Assembly (NCBI GenBank): GCA_017619445.1
Contig: JAFZSI010000006.1
Location: forward strand, 1 to 61,285
Source: Prevotella sp.
GTDB taxonomy: Bacteria > Bacteroidota > Bacteroidia > Bacteroidales > Bacteroidaceae
Direction of reading: 5' to 3'
Length of the DNA: 61,285 bases
A program made the position numbers and the translations under genes. The notes under the pieces are model-generated. The model did no database searches and was not told the DNA's origin. It worked only from the letters and a program-made list of their open reading frames with translations. Position 1 is the first letter of the stretch. Each line of letters starts with the position of its first letter. Below, piece after piece: positions 4,902 to 60,862 of the stretch.

Positions 4902-4985
4902 CTCATACATGCATTTGTTTTCATAAACCTGCACTTTGTAATCGTAAACCAATGCTTTACGACCACAAAGCATTGCTTTACATTC
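4902..4985 (+). repeat. 21-bp tandem array, site A left (4 units)
   Basis: Units start at 4902, 4923, 4944 and 4965, exactly 21 bp apart. The clearest unit (4944-4964) begins GTAAACCAATGCTTTAC, an inverted repeat GTAAA-N7-TTTAC. The last unit runs directly into AAATTCTCTAG, half of a TCTAGA-centred palindrome. The same family occurs near 15.9, 28.4 and 34.7 kb. The stretch 4727-4901 holds nothing else I recognise. Confidence 0.7.
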
Positions 4986-4996
4986 AAATTCTCTAG

Positions 4997-5163
4997 CCTG
5001 AAATATTCATGGAGTTATCGGGAGTTAACGGAAGTTATCGCGGTCTGCGACCGCTCAGGGAGTTAACTGACAATAGTTCAGCATATGTCCGCTAACTTCC
5101 GTTAACTTCCAATGAATTCGCAGAATTCATATAACTCCAGATAACTCCCGTGAATAATGTAAG
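4997..5163. mobile_element. palindromic MITE-like element flanked by CTAG
   Basis: This 167-bp non-coding segment is bounded by CTAG at 4993-4996 and 5164-5167. Its two halves are imperfect reverse complements: the left holds ATATTCATGGAGTTATC and GGAGTTAACGGAAGTTA, the right their near complements. The right half has an extra palindromic insert containing GAATTCGCAGAATTC. Outside the CTAGs lie AAATTCT and AAAATTT, which rejoin into the palindrome seen intact elsewhere, suggesting insertion at CTAG with a 4-bp duplication. No transposase is present. Confidence 0.5.
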
Positions 5164-5220
5164 CTAGAAAATTTCATAATAACTCCCAACGTTGTTCTCG
5201 CCATGTTTAGAACGGCAATC

Positions 5221-5261
5221 ACAAAGTACGGCTTTACGTTCAGATTTTCTAGAAAATTCGG
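5221..5261 (+). repeat. 21-bp unit plus TCTAGA palindrome, site A right
   Basis: ACAAAGTACGGCTTTACGTT matches the last unit left of the MITE-like element. It is followed by the palindrome ATTTTCTAGAAAAT (5244-5257). The block ends just before the mutY stop codon. Confidence 0.6.
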
Positions 5262-5270
5262 GGCTAAAGT

Positions 5271-6290
5271 TCAGAGTTGTTGCAGCAGCCTTTCAATCAG
5301 GCGCGGCAAAGCGTAGTGCTGTATGTCGCATTCGTCAATCCACACGTAGTCTTCGGGCAGTTGAGGCTTCTCGTGCAGGTTGGCCACGTAGAAATCGGCA
5401 GTGATGGCCTGGTGGGTGAGCACGTGGCGGACGTTTTTTGCGCGCAGGCTCACTTCGCCGTTGATTTCGGGCAGGACATGCGCGGCGGTGTTCATGCTGT
5501 CGTGGGTGAGCAGCGGTTCCCACAGCCCTTGCCAGATGTCGCCCTGGCCTCGCCTGTGCAGGGCCGTCTTTCCGTTGTGGCGGAGGTAGAAATAGGTGAG
5601 GTGGCGCGTCCTTACCTTCAGCGTCTTTTGCTTCACGGGCAGCGAGGCCGTGGTTCCCGTGCGCAGCGCGTGGCAAGTCTCGGCCAGCGGACAGGCCGCG
5701 CAGCGCGGCGACTGAGGCGTGCACACCAGAGCGCCGAAGTCCATCATTCCCTGGTTGAAGGCCGCCGCCTGATTTTTTGGCAGCAGACTGTTGGCCAGGG
5801 CGGTGAAGGTTTTCTTGCCCTCGGTGGTGTTGATGGGGGTGTCGATGCCGAAGTGGCGGGCGAGCACCCTATAGACATTGCCGTCAACCACGGCCGCATC
5901 CACTCCGAAGGCGATGGAGGCAATGGCCGCCGCCGTGTAGTCGCCCACGCCCTTGAGCTTGCGGATGGCTTCGAGCGTGTCGGGAAACTGTCCTTGCTGG
6001 CATATCTGTTTTGCAGCGCCGTGCAGGTTGCGCGCGCGGCTGTAGTAGCCCAGCCCTTGCCATTCGCGCAGCACCTCGTCCTCGGTGGCATCGGCCAGCT
6101 TTGCGACGGTAGGCCACCGCTGCATGAACCGCTGCCAGTAGGCCTGACCCTGCTGAATGCGCGTCTGTTGCAGGATTACCTCGCTGAGCCAGATGGCATA
6201 CGGGTCTTTGGTTTCGCGCCAGGGCAGGCTTCGCCCGTTGTGCGCGTACCATATTAAAATAATATTGGCGAATGAAGGGTTGGAAGACAT
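5271..6290 (-). CDS. mutY: A/G-specific adenine DNA glycosylase
   Basis: A 339-residue base-excision repair enzyme that removes adenine mispaired with 8-oxoguanine. The HhH-GPD domain covers about residues 25-170, with SEVILQQTR (catalytic Glu) near residue 37, the helix-hairpin-helix LKGVGDYTAAAI, and VDGNVYRVLAR (catalytic Asp). The iron-sulfur ligands follow as C-x6-C-x2-C-x5-C (CTPQSPRCAACPLAETC). The C-terminal third is the NUDIX-like 8-oxoG recognition domain. Length is normal. The promoter lies only eight bases before the start codon, so the mRNA is probably nearly leaderless. Confidence 0.96.
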   Translation of the reverse strand: MSSNPSFANIILIWYAHNGRSLPWRETKDPYAIWLSEVILQQTRIQQGQAYWQRFMQRWPTVAKLADATEDEVLREWQGLGYYSRARNLHGAAKQICQQGQFPDTLEAIRKLKGVGDYTAAAIASIAFGVDAAVVDGNVYRVLARHFGIDTPINTTEGKKTFTALANSLLPKNQAAAFNQGMMDFGALVCTPQSPRCAACPLAETCHALRTGTTASLPVKQKTLKVRTRHLTYFYLRHNGKTALHRRGQGDIWQGLWEPLLTHDSMNTAAHVLPEINGEVSLRAKNVRHVLTHQAITADFYVANLHEKPQLPEDYVWIDECDIQHYALPRLIERLLQQL

Positions 6291-6298
6291 AATCGGTG

Positions 6299-6329
6299 CA
6301 AAGTTACGGCAAAACGAGAGAACTGCAAA
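6299..6329 (-). promoter_or_regulatory. promoter of mutY
   Basis: On the minus strand TTTG (6329-6326), a 19-bp spacer and TAACTTTG (6306-6299) match the Bacteroidota consensus exactly. Only eight bases separate the -7 box from the mutY ATG. Confidence 0.85.
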
Positions 6330-6334
6330 AAGAA

Positions 6335-6519
6335 AAACGGTTTTCTTTTTGCTTTTCGCTCACTTCTTTGTTTCCTTTGACTGTCGTCGAAGGTACTTTC
6401 GTTCGGAAAAGCAAAGAAAAACAAGTTTTCCTTTGGCTTTTCGCTCACTTATTGGATAAAATCTTCACGCTCGGCAAAGAAAACTAGCATTCTTTGCCCT
6501 CGCTTAATCAGATTTTTCG
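6335..6519 (+). repeat. promoter-hairpin repeat array, locus 1 (partly decayed)
   Basis: Two decayed units of the 84-88 bp family precede the His-rich gene. The first keeps TTTTGCTTTTCGCTCACTTC and GAAGGTACTTTCGTTCGG, but its -7 box reads TTTCCTTTG. In the second the -7 region is replaced by TTGGATAAAATCTTCACGC. The third -7 box (6520-6527) is intact. A hairpin GGCAAAGAA / TTCTTTGCC lies at 6473-6498. Confidence 0.7.
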
Positions 6520-6527
6520 TACCTTTG
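6520..6527 (+). promoter_or_regulatory. -7 element of the His-rich gene
   Basis: TACCTTTG ends eight bases before the ATG at 6536. The nearest upstream TTTG is 23 bases away, slightly long. The transcript would have a leader of only a few bases. Confidence 0.65.
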
Positions 6528-6535
6528 TCGCGAAA

Positions 6536-6892
6536 ATGAATGTAAATCGCAGAAGGATTCTTTCGGCCCGGCTGTTGCTGGCTGTGTTTGTCGGCATGCT
6601 GGCGCTTTCTTCGCTGCATCATCATGAGCATGCCGCGCAGGTAGGCGACAATTGCTACAACTGTCACCACCATCTGCCTCATGCCGGCCATTTGTCGGGA
6701 GCTTCTGCCAGTTTTCACCAATGTGTGCTCTGCCAGTTTCAGAGCCTCCCTTATGTCCAGCCGGGTGTTGTCTTGTTGTCAGCACCGTCGTTCTGTCTTC
6801 ATGAGCGGACGGGTATGGTTTGTGCCATGCTCTTTGGCAGTCACGCATTCATTCATTCCACGCGCGCCCCTCCGTCGCTGCTGTTGCTTTAG
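6536..6892 (+). CDS. secreted histidine-rich protein, probable metal-binding
   Basis: A 118-residue protein with a basic start (MNVNRRRILSARLLLAVFVG) and one hydrophobic segment, so exported or membrane anchored. Histidine clusters follow: LHHHEHAAQ, then CYNCHHHLPHAGH, then FHQCVLCQF. The CxxC and HHH groups suggest Zn, Cu or Co binding. The next gene is a TonB-dependent receptor whose mature N-terminus is also His-rich, so the two probably act in metal acquisition. Small His-rich proteins of this kind often precede receptors in Bacteroidota. No catalytic domain is seen; function is inferred from composition and context. Confidence 0.75.
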   Translation: MNVNRRRILSARLLLAVFVGMLALSSLHHHEHAAQVGDNCYNCHHHLPHAGHLSGASASFHQCVLCQFQSLPYVQPGVVLLSAPSFCLHERTGMVCAMLFGSHAFIHSTRAPPSLLLL

Positions 6893-9202: not shown

Positions 9203-9272
9203 GTGTCGGACAAGGAAGCGAAGTTAATTTGTGAGATTGTGAAATAGTAAAAATGTAAAATCGTAAAAATCT

Positions 9273-9304
9273 TTTGGTTTTTCTCTCACTAAATTGTACC
9301 TTTG
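9273..9304 (+). promoter_or_regulatory. promoter of the metallophosphatase gene
   Basis: TTTG (9273-9276), a 20-bp spacer and TACCTTTG (9297-9304) fit the Bacteroidota consensus. Confidence 0.85.
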
Positions 9305-9337
9305 CAGGTGCTTAGCTACTGACGGCTAAGCTCCTGC
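9304..9337 (+). other. 5'-UTR hairpin at the transcription start
   Basis: GCAGGTGCTTAGC pairs with GCTAAGCTCCTGC (12 of 13 positions) around an 8-base loop. It begins at the end of the -7 box and ends 13 bases before the start codon, so nearly the whole leader is folded. It could cap the mRNA against decay or affect initiation. Confidence 0.7.
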
Positions 9338-13236: not shown

Positions 13237-13348
13237 GTGTTTTTCGTTCAAAATGTGGTCCTTAATTGTCTTAAAAAACCAAAAACCGCCACATTACCTT
13301 CTTTGTTCATGCTTGATAGAAGAAATTCGAAAATAATCGCTTTTTTCT

Positions 13349-13637
13349 TTTGCTTTTCACTCACTTCTTCGTACCTTTGACTGTCGTCGAAGGTACTTTC
13401 GTTCGGAAAAGAAAAGAAAAACAAGTTTTCCTTTTGCTTTTCACTCACTTAATCGTACCTTTGATAGCCGTCGAAGGTACTTCCGTTCGGAAAAGAAAAG
13501 AAAAAAAAACGCTTTTTTCTTTTGCTTTTCACTCACTTAATCGTACCTTTGATAGCCGTCGAAGGTACTTTCGTTCGGTAAAGAAAAGAAAAAAACGCTT
13601 TTTTCTTTTGCTTTTCACTCACTTAATCGTACCTTTG
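13349..13637 (+). repeat. promoter-hairpin repeat array, locus 2 (four promoters)
   Basis: Four complete cores TTTG-N19-TACCTTTG occur, with -7 boxes at 13372, 13456, 13544 and 13630 (periods 84, 88 and 86 bp). In each of the first three, GTACCTTTGA forms a hairpin with TCGAAGGTAC just downstream. An A-rich/T-rich hairpin (AAAAGAAAAGAAAAA with TTTTTTCTTTTG) follows. The fourth -7 box drives the PurF-like gene. The rest of 13237-13348 shows nothing else. Confidence 0.85.
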
Positions 13638-13730: not shown

Positions 13731-15164
13731 ATGGGTGGCTTTTTTGGAACGATTTCCACTAAAAACTGTATTAGCGACCTGTTTTATGGTACCGACTACA
13801 ATTCGCATCTCGGTACCAAGCGTGCGGGTCTTGTCACTTTCGACCGCGAGCACGGTTTCTGCAGGTCTATTCACAGTTTGGAGCGCAATTATTTTCGTTC
13901 AAGGTTTGAAGACGAACTGGATAACTTTTTCGGCTGTCAGGGAATAGGCGTCATCAGCGACACCGACCCGCAGCCCATCATCGTTAACTCGCACCTGGGC
14001 CGTTATGCCGTGGCCACAGTGGCAAAAATCAACAATATCAGACAGATTGCCGACGACCTGATGGCGCAGCGCATGCACTTCAGCGAGATGTCGGCCAACA
14101 AAATCAACCAGACCGAGCTGGTGGCCCTGCTCATCAACATGGGCAACTCGTTTGTGGAGGGCATCAACCTGGTTTATAAGAAGATTGAAGGCTCGTGCTC
14201 GATGGTCATACTCACCGAGGACGGCATCATAGCCGCGCGCGACTTTCTCGGGCGCACCCCCGTGGTGCTGGGAAAGAAAGCGGATGGCTACGCCGTGACG
14301 AGCGAGACTTCCGCATTTCCGAATCTTGACTTCAAGGTTGTGCGCGACCTGGGGCCTGGCGAGATAGTCAAGCTCCACACCGACCGCATCGAGGTGCTCC
14401 AACAGCCCTTCAAGCGCAAGCAGATATGCTCGTTCCTCTGGGTATATTACGGTTTCCCGTCGAGCGACTACGAGGGAATCAACGTGGAGGCCGTGCGCGA
14501 GGCCAACGGCAAGGCTATGGGCGAGCAAGACGAAACGCCCGTGGACTGCGTGTGCGGCATTCCCGACTCGGGAGTGGGCATGGCGTTGGGCTATGCCGAG
14601 GGCCACAAGGTTCCCTACAAGCGTGCTGTGCTGAAATACACGCCCACGTGGCCGCGCAGCTTCACACCGGGAAGCCAGACGCGGCGCAGCTTAGTGGCAA
14701 AAATGAAACTGATACCCAACAGCGCCATCCTTAAAGGGCAGCGCATTGCCTTCTGCGACGACTCTATCGTGCGCGGCACGCAGCTGCGCGACAATGTGCG
14801 CACCTTCTTTGAGTATGGTGCCAAGGAGGTGCACTGCCGCATTTCGTGTCCGCCCTTAGTCTATGGCTGTCCGTATATTGGGTTCACCACGTCGAAAACC
14901 GACTTGGAGCTCATCACGCGCCAGATAATCAAAGACTTTGAGGGCGACGACCATATCAATCTGGACAAGTATGCCACCACCGACTCGCCCGAATATACGC
15001 GCATGGTGAACGAGATTGCCCGCCGACTGGGACTCTCGTCGCTGAAATTCGCTAAACTGGAGTCGCTCGTCGAGGCCATCGGACTGCCCAAGTGTGACGT
15101 GTGCACCCACTGTTTCGACGGTTCGAGCTACTGCCACGAGCAGGACGGACAGGAGTGGTTCTAA
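13731..15164 (+). CDS. amidophosphoribosyltransferase-like protein lacking the catalytic N-terminal Cys
   Basis: A 477-residue PurF homolog. PurF makes phosphoribosylamine from PRPP and glutamine, the first step of purine synthesis. The C-terminal phosphoribosyltransferase domain is intact, with the PRPP loop IAFCDDSIVRGTQLRD near residue 345. The glutaminase domain normally begins Met-Cys, the Cys being the nucleophile, but here it begins MGGFFGTIS. No upstream start restores Cys. The protein may use ammonia or a partner, or have another role. A C-rich tail (CDVCTHCFDGSSYC) is present. The leader is 93 bases and begins with a GCAGTC / GACTGC hairpin. Confidence 0.85.
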   Translation: MGGFFGTISTKNCISDLFYGTDYNSHLGTKRAGLVTFDREHGFCRSIHSLERNYFRSRFEDELDNFFGCQGIGVISDTDPQPIIVNSHLGRYAVATVAKINNIRQIADDLMAQRMHFSEMSANKINQTELVALLINMGNSFVEGINLVYKKIEGSCSMVILTEDGIIAARDFLGRTPVVLGKKADGYAVTSETSAFPNLDFKVVRDLGPGEIVKLHTDRIEVLQQPFKRKQICSFLWVYYGFPSSDYEGINVEAVREANGKAMGEQDETPVDCVCGIPDSGVGMALGYAEGHKVPYKRAVLKYTPTWPRSFTPGSQTRRSLVAKMKLIPNSAILKGQRIAFCDDSIVRGTQLRDNVRTFFEYGAKEVHCRISCPPLVYGCPYIGFTTSKTDLELITRQIIKDFEGDDHINLDKYATTDSPEYTRMVNEIARRLGLSSLKFAKLESLVEAIGLPKCDVCTHCFDGSSYCHEQDGQEWF

Positions 15165-21324: not shown

Positions 21325-21501
21325 GTTGCAATGCGTTTTTGATGGTTGTCAGACAGATAGTGAAAGTGCATGAACAGCCTTTCTTCGCCACAAATTTACG
21401 AAATAGTTTTATTATTACCACTTTTTTTGTTGAAAAAAAGCGTTTTTGACACCATTTGGGCATATTTTTAAGTCATTTTGTTGGTCTTGGAAGCTGTTTT
21501 T

Positions 21502-21679
21502 CTGAGACTTTGGCTTTGCCGAAGCTACTTTCGTTCGCAAAAGTAAAGAAAAACACGTTTTCCTTTTGCTTTTCGCTCACTTCTTCGTACCTTTGACTAT
21601 TGTCGAAGGTACTTTCGTTCGGAAAAGAAAAGAAAAACAAGTTTTCCTTTTGCTTTTCGCTCACTTCTTCGTACCTTTG
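21502..21679 (+). repeat. promoter-hairpin repeat array, locus 3
   Basis: Two intact promoter cores (TTTG-N19-TACCTTTG, -7 boxes at 21588 and 21672, 84 bp apart) are preceded by a decayed unit whose -7 region reads GACTTTGGC. GTACCTTTGA and TCGAAGGTAC pair as at locus 2. The remainder of 21325-21501 holds no gene. Confidence 0.85.
21649..21679 (+). promoter_or_regulatory. promoter of the nucleoside hydrolase fusion gene
   Basis: TTTG, 19 bp, TACCTTTG, ending 25 bases before the ATG at 21705. It is the last unit of the repeat array. Confidence 0.85.
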
Positions 21680-21704
21680 CACTTATAACAATATAACACT
21701 TATT

Positions 21705-57943: not shown

Positions 57944-58015
57944 AGGTGCCTGGCGGATTCGAACCGCCGTAGACGGTTTTGCAGACCGTTGACTAAGCCA
58001 CTCATCCAAGGCACC
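57944..58015 (-). tRNA. tRNA-Cys (GCA)
   Basis: The minus strand folds into a cloverleaf: acceptor GGTGCCT with AGGCACC, anticodon stem-loop CGGTCTGCAAAACCG giving anticodon GCA, and T-loop GGTTCGAATCC. The discriminator is U, as expected for tRNA-Cys. CCA is not encoded. Confidence 0.95.
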
Positions 58016-60789: not shown

Positions 60790-60862
60790 CGAGGTGTAGC
60801 GCAGTTGGTAGCGTTCCTGGTTTGGGACCAGGCTGTCGCAGGTTCGAGTCCTGTCACCTCGA
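60790..60862 (+). tRNA. tRNA-Pro (TGG)
   Basis: Cloverleaf with acceptor CGAGGTG / CACCTCG, anticodon stem-loop CCTGGTTTGGGACCAGG giving anticodon TGG, and T-arm GCAGGTTCGAGTCCTGT. CCA is not encoded. Confidence 0.95.

Follow-up and report, generated by a model that had tools for sequence, protein, structure and literature searches.

The window analysed here is a stretch of 61,285 nucleotides (contig JAFZSI010000006.1) from a Prevotella sp. metagenome-assembled genome (GCA_017619445.1) that is 85% complete. Upstream of a purF-like gene it holds four exact copies of the promoter pattern TTTG-N19-TACCTTTG, which start at 13349, 13433, 13521 and 13607 and form an array spanning 13349-13637 (Table 1). 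The pattern occurs at 4 + 2 sites in the window, against a mean of 0.00 in 100 shuffles. Tandem Repeats Finder describes positions 13329-13637 as 3.6 copies of an 88-bp unit with 89% matches and a score of 504. The first-pass annotation had claimed four promoters in about 290 bp and a unit period of 84-88 bp; both claims are confirmed, the spacings between promoters being 84, 88 and 86 bp. The leader of the purF-like gene is joined to the last promoter, at 13607-13637. The gene itself scores 189.6 bits against its best family, below the cut-off of 350. This gene has one promoter of the same type in the close relative G041, and unrelated promoters in two others, G040 and G042.

Two hairpins accompany the promoters. 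The first, H1, is the dyad GTACCTTTGA/TCGAAGGTAC, which had been described as a 10-bp dyad at every start site. Units 1-3 do contain it, with a single T.G mismatch, but the last promoter is without a hairpin partner. Folding of two of these dyads gave a 10-bp stem with a 4-nt loop, a terminator scan listed two of the three with 11 pairs each, and the equivalents of H1 in the later units lie, by sequence, at 13455-13480 and 13543-13568. The second hairpin, H2, had been placed before the next promoter as an A/T-rich hairpin; the hairpin exists, but the next -33 box lies within its 3' arm. A second copy of H2 lies at 13490-13530 and a third, by eye, at about 13577-13616. The start of unit 1 is written as directly after TTTG, and its right end is its own promoter. 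The far upstream flank of P0 is not element sequence, and 13291-13383 scores only 48 bits with the covariance model R1 described below. No Rfam family reached its gathering score in the array; the 14 weak matches were all far below gathering scores, and on this ground a known RNA family was rejected as the identity of the array.

Table 1. Features of the array upstream of the purF-like gene, and further copies in the window
Feature	Positions	Strand	Details
P0, read as the oldest promoter of the array	13340..13379	+	-33 TTTG 13349-13352, N19, -7 TACCTTTG 13372-13379
Unit 1, 84 bp, read as inserted	13380..13463	+	-33 13433-13436, -7 13456-13463; model R1 107 bits
Unit 2, 88 bp, read as inserted	13464..13551	+	-33 13521-13524, -7 13544-13551
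Unit 3, 86 bp, read as inserted	13552..13637	+	-33 13607-13610, -7 13630-13637
Hairpin H1 of unit 1	13371..13396	+	-7 box of the left promoter pairs with TCGAAGGTAC
Hairpin H2 of unit 1	13406..13442	+	A-rich arm 13406-13420 pairs with T-rich arm 13426-13442 (contains the -33 box)
purF-like gene, 3' of the last promoter	13731..15164	+	best NCBIfam match TIGR01134 purF
Second array, two units	21501..21683	+	upstream of a 648-aa ORF; exact promoters at 21565 and 21649
Copy with damaged right end, then a variant promoter	6256..6458	+	upstream of a 118-aa ORF
Promoter with the element spacer but without H1 (hairpin-less relative)	9221..9308	+	upstream of a 236-aa ORF; weak, 38.7 bits

Elsewhere in the window, all 10 sites of TACCTTTG are intergenic, and at least 8 of them lie inside copies of the element. 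The looser box TAnnTTTG occurs 41 times, at 26 intergenic sites and 15 sites in ORFs; therefore -7-like boxes exist in genes too, and no copies were seen there. A variant unit, GATAAAATCTTCACGCTCGG ... CAGATTTTTCGTACCTTTG, whose outer arms seem to be AAAATCT/AGATTTT, lies at 6459-6540 beside ordinary units, and similar ones were noticed at four other loci (L018, L022, L031 and L039). The window also contains two tRNA genes (Rfam RF00005), at 57944-58015 on the minus strand and 60790-60862 on the plus strand.

Is the repeated promoter a peculiarity of one locus? With the array as query, BLAST gave 54 matches in the same genome. The model R1, built from 38 units and with only rough E-values, gave 113 matches at E<=0.01, of which 8 were dropped (one partial and seven antisense to units that were counted; among the seven, C46:2666 and C58:6295 are possibly divergent promoters in their own right). 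The census thus comprises about 105 units in 79 arrays, of which 57 have one unit, 19 two, 2 three and 1 four. The one with four is the array at 13349-13637, where the weakly scoring oldest promoter was counted as a unit. Stacking is not a defining feature of the element, because 57 of the 79 arrays consist of a single unit. What the arrays share is their placement. A gene start, defined as a same-strand ORF of at least 100 aa within 260 nt, is faced by 75 of the 79 (median distance 28 nt). The reversed direction gives 41/76, and random positions give 47%; the lack of bias to gene 5' ends that would have refuted the first-pass reading is thus not observed, and the arrays do look like promoter cassettes. 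One of the four remaining arrays, a weak copy, lies directly 5' of the RNase P RNA (RF00010, 183 bits; L199 1099-1511, minus strand). A pattern made of the spacer and the -7 box has 72 matches in the genome, nearly all within elements, and 0 in the control.

The genes downstream are unrelated, as seen from the N-termini of the downstream ORFs, so that the same promoter stands ahead of different genes. Among 20 downstream proteins, picked by hand and not at random, 15 score above the curated cut-off for some core gene family; a sixteenth has a CCA-adding enzyme as its best match, below cut-off. The genes tested in this way include a uridine-kinase-like gene (not thrS) and a SpoIID/LytB-domain gene (not purL). 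Gene names outside the 20 profile-tested proteins are presumptive, being assigned from N-terminal sequence, and the 'housekeeping' character of the downstream genes is an impression. Two unusual copies were also noticed. At C49:8913 (near 7714-7811 of L012) lies a decayed copy with the -7 box TACTTTTC. A stop codon precedes it, and downstream of it inspection by eye shows a hairpin resembling a terminator and no ORF; a short transcript may arise here. At about 4980-5320 of G000:C6 (L394 780-1120), a diverged relative forms three tandem units of 66 bp, with a GAAACTTTGCATAAGTTTC hairpin, CTTTCGTTCGG and CTCACTTAGTCG, in which the -7 box is no longer TAnnTTTG.

One copy of the element measures 73-88 bp. 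Read from the -7 box on its left, it consists of a short loop and an arm that pairs with this box (H1, where AC-nnn-GT closes the hairpin with GTCGAANNTAC); the motif TTTCGYTCGG; H2, whose A-rich arm is joined by a loop to a T-rich arm holding the -33 TTTG; the CTCRCTTAATCG spacer; and TAnnTTTG. The spacer and the TTTCGYTCGG motif are conserved among copies. In 67 of the 79 arrays, the last -7 box is an intact TAnnTTTG that is preceded, at 19 or 20 nt, by TTG. The consensus for sigma-ABfr in Bacteroidota is TAnnTTTG at -7 and TTTG at -33, as given in the relevant passages of PMC7366714, and the right end of the element agrees with this consensus (PMC7366714) at a spacing of 19-20 nt. The element carries its own promoter, whose activity is predicted from this match.

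The arm sequences vary between loci while the pairing is kept. Doubly changed cells number 38; the shuffles, which ignore the kinship of the copies, gave 10.7 +/- 4.4 and in none of 500 cases reached 38, and controls with slid positions gave 3-9. This covariation covers H1 and the outer pairs of H2, and most A1 rows had been picked by sequence match to the H1 consensus, not by complementarity. Among leftmost units, 27/52 in our genome have an H1 arm that matches the -7 box on the left, where 12.5 are expected, and 16/41 in relatives, where 8.8 are; the anchor of this count sometimes takes the TTTG of the loop, which lowers the number of first-versus-arm matches. The middle arm fits the final -7 box as well, in 33/52 leftmost units compared with 18.3 expected. 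The RNAalifold consensus of all units has only three pairs, probably owing to leftmost -7 boxes that are relics, and R1 is therefore nearly a sequence model.

If the unit has been inserted, sites without it should be found in related species. The regions upstream of orthologs were compared in G040, G041, G042 and other genomes of the genus, all of them other species. In a strict test with decoy left flanks as controls, 99 ortholog pairs covered 31 arrays whose leftmost -7 box is intact; 26 of 75 arrays, in which it is not, were left out. Five of the 99 pairs show a strict empty site. They represent 4/31 arrays, those at gyrB, at an ABC transporter gene, at recF and, in two relatives, at ffh. 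Elsewhere the upstream sequence has mostly diverged beyond alignment and counts neither for nor against insertion. At recF, the relative runs from TTAACTTTG straight into the gene leader, while our genome has the same TTAACTTTG, then 82 bp ending in TATCTTTG, and then the leader; 55 bases match on the left and 10 on the right, and the best-scoring of 60 decoy flanks lies 53 lower. The matched bases on left and right are 49/8 (G041) and 28/61 (G040) at ffh, 48/26 at gyrB and 46/7 at the ABC gene, where the missing block is a two-unit array of 168 bp. Looser alignments, outside the strict passes, have the block missing at lon (two relatives), cca and holA (a two-unit array of 151 bp); at typA they do so over less sequence. 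A single insert is 73-85 bp long, lies at an existing -7 box and supplies a new -33/-7 promoter at its end.

The block is flanked by a -7 box left and right. The two boxes agree at many loci and differ at recF and typA, where the left one equals the box of the relatives and the right one does not; at the ABC gene it is the right copy, and not the left, that agrees with the box of the relative. The junction was placed after TTTG by the model alignment and was not freely fitted, and because of the box on both sides it can slide within the shared bases (4-8 bp), the range being as small as TTTG at typA and CTTTG at recF. The orientation of the blocks and their position at the -7 box fit an oriented insertion at a short target, but the junction can slide within the repeated box. 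In 27 comparisons with element-free relatives, the left, middle and right -7 dinucleotides agree with the relative's box 13, 11 and 16 times, where 5.0, 6.0 and 7.2 are expected; this agreement fits target choice by pairing, box duplication or template switching alike. Directly upstream of some element-free promoters in relatives (L259, L260 and L282), CATTCTT/CATCTTT heptamer-like repeats were observed.

Hairpin and promoter are missing as one block, and the hairpin is therefore better explained as a part of an inserted element. In which direction has the change gone? At ffh the block is absent from all three close relatives, which favours gain in our genome. Among 21 species of the genus with a readable upstream region at ffh, our genome and two more distant ones, G013 and G046, carry the element, and therefore gains or losses recur. 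At single sites the block may instead have been lost, all relatives being other species, for instance by recombination between its two -7 boxes. Taken together, the element is most probably a non-autonomous mobile promoter that targets the -7 box, and the array at the purF-like gene three stacked copies of it on an older promoter.

At some loci the comparison with relatives shows the block at an existing -7 box of the sigma-ABfr type, oriented with transcription; the old promoter thus remains upstream, and a complete new promoter adjoins the gene. Since the element brings its own promoter, genes could collect stacked promoters unbroken, and the last promoter of an array would be the active one, judging from its sequence. 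Insertion would be tolerated since the promoter is rebuilt, which would explain copies at essential genes. The fresh -7 box at the end of every copy would be a possible target for the next copy, and arrays would then enlarge by stacking and by duplication. Traces of both are found in the arrays. Among 26 pairs of neighbouring units some are near-identical, with identity up to 0.99 (the 99th percentile across loci is 0.89), and are therefore ascribed to duplication. Other neighbours have, by eye, different H2 hairpins within one array (C15:8744 and C64:62848), which suggests that one element landed behind another, and in several pairs of low identity the left unit is without H1. Duplication and stacking would both follow because each copy ends in a new -7 box.

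Then what moves the element? It may be a hairpin-dependent enzyme or a replication event. The first possibility to consider is a spread without any enzyme, by template switching of replication between TAnnTTTG boxes with the aid of the hairpins, and we regard it as quite possible, if short of likely. Several negative results agree with it. Terminal inverted repeats of the MITE type were not found between the left end, AC-nnn-GTCGAAGGTAC, and the right end, GTACCTTTG; complementary arms exist at the ends, but the left arm is set back inward from the written junction by about 7-9 nt. No transposase partner was found, and no long autonomous form with the same ends among 61 left-end matches in the genome (85% complete), which all lie in short elements except two dissimilar ones (C57:49403 and C60:10707). 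The mixture of ancestral and other types among left and right -7 boxes, and the slippage-type duplication of near-identical neighbours, point the same way. However, internal motifs conserved across families in the order and covarying hairpins look like the recognition sites of an enzyme, and a homology of 8 bp is short for repeated copying between loci. Transfer as cargo of phages or plasmids was rejected: no match to the element was found in the plasmids or phages searched, and in viral contigs two patterns gave 0 and 1 matches.

The other possibility is a HUH/Y1-like or other transposase that acts in trans, with the H1 arm guiding the element to the -7 box; we hold it to be possible but rather doubtful. 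It would account for the fixed orientation at a short target, the hairpins near the end and the excess of H1 arms that match the left -7 box in our genome and its relatives, and the arm matches the element-free box of relatives in 11/27 cases versus 6.0 expected (p=0.010). Furthermore, the element is present in 26 of the 27 genus genomes with a long Y1 protein (250-310 aa) and in 51 of the 93 others, with a Fisher p of ~2e-5, or 2e-4 for 24 clearer cases, in a by-eye count over 120 genomes for a class defined after the hits and with phylogeny uncorrected. Against such an enzyme, no Y1 transposase lies above the cut-off in our genome at its 85% completeness, the best match having 20.8 bits versus 23. 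Also, 19 long-Y1 loci from 15 genomes were selected among the hits: the element is clear at only one of them and gives weak matches (E 0.001-0.008) at three more, while many bear, by eye, other palindromes of the GGGGACAGG type. A RAYT/Y1 protein was therefore rejected as an unlikely mover, and the association between Y1 and the element is probably phylogenetic in origin. The proteins at these loci (L375-L393) are RAYT-like Y1 proteins of 251-298 aa, and many of their genes are flanked by palindromes of the type GGGGACAGG...CCTGTCCCC.

An explanation without mobility is that the hairpins and the spacer are regulator sites of housekeeping genes, in a fixed promoter architecture that is inherited vertically and multiplied by ordinary tandem duplications. 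It would suit the many core genes downstream and the conservation of the spacer and the TTTCGYTCGG motif, and some orthologous sites are in fact shared. In a test with N-terminal fragments of 49 genes of our genome, a model match was found upstream of the ortholog in 9/45 cases in G041, 4/34 in G040 and 1/35 in G042, where the nine of G041 include the purF-like gene, with a weak match and no clear unit. The sharing exceeds the rough background of 1.5-1.7% in G041 (1.7% there) and G040 and does not in G042; in the two relatives it also fits a retained regulatory element, as does the presence of the element at ffh in three of the 21 readable species. On the other side, 80-97% of the tested sites are unshared, the block is absent as a whole with its flanks and the -7 box intact, and different types of H2 are stacked within one array. 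The gyrB copy of G041 is also at odds with conserved regulator sites: the element is present there and in our genome, and the G041 copy has, by eye, largely lost its pairing but kept its final promoter. We therefore consider a fixed architecture improbable. As for the proposal that the cassettes buffer sigma factor or RNA polymerase or produce short RNAs, the exact consensus matches of the internal promoters and the decayed copy at C49:8913 speak for it, but the predominance of single-unit arrays, the gene start faced by 75 of the 79, the lack of any Rfam family at gathering score in the array, and an insertion that accounts for the structure without such roles make it very improbable.

How far does the element extend beyond this genome? 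Of 120 genomes in the genus, 77 contain it at E<=1e-6, and many of these have at least 34 matches. Among 149 genomes across the order, it was found in three besides our own, each of another family and with 8-10 matches. Four copies from those three genomes have the same anatomy with different arm sequences.

No published description of the element was found in the open-licence literature. Putative mobile promoters were reportedly described by Matus-Garcia, Nijveen and van Passel in 2012 as near-identical promoters ahead of unrelated genes in one genome. Our element resembles them in this respect; in contrast to the promoters so reported, it has a defined anatomy with two hairpins and fixed ends, an existing -7 box as its site, and stacked arrays. 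Miniature elements derived from IS200/IS605 insert in one orientation at a short target, have subterminal hairpins, and use pairing between the hairpin foot and the target. In contrast to these, no cognate Y1 gene was found here, and the element carries a full promoter that would restore the target. It is short, palindromic, extragenic and non-autonomous, like REP/REPIN sequences with their RAYT, but no RAYT lies above cut-off in our genome, and the RAYT-like loci of relatives bear, by eye, mostly another palindrome. It differs from ordinary sigma-ABfr promoters, as these are described in parts of PMC7366714, in that the spacer and upstream sequence are set by the element and not by the gene. 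The BrickBuilt MITE of Porphyromonas gingivalis is, according to the passages concerned in PMC4596501, a dispersed, intergenic element with tandem repeats and promoter activity; it has a leader and a tail with small inverted-repeat ends and a 23-nt minisatellite, and occurs in 19 copies in one strain, with promoters in both directions. Both elements are found in Bacteroidales, are dispersed and intergenic, and carry tandem repeats, with promoter activity in ours being predicted; targeting of the -7 box is not described for BrickBuilt in those passages (PMC4596501). Thus BrickBuilt (PMC4596501), together with the idea of mobile promoters, is nearest in print to our element.

It is conceivable, although we think it unlikely, that the element represents a new class of mobile elements, which homes to the single-stranded -7 region, picks its site by pairing of the arm and rebuilds the promoter on which it lands. 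If so, it would have spread through essential genes, laying down stacked promoters harmlessly, and its anatomy, seen with different arm sequences in three other genera of the order, would point to a widespread family of elements. Most mobile DNA is tolerated only where the damage is small, while this element seems to restore the core promoter on which it has landed, and such restoration would permit the occupancy of gyrB, recF, ffh, lon and the RNase P RNA. What is more, conserved promoter spacers in such genomes call for caution, for they may be copies and not regulatory sites. Strain genomes could also be read directly for the natural promoter-insertion variants that the element would supply, and the element would give one cause of tandem promoters and of fast promoter turnover in Prevotella-like bacteria.
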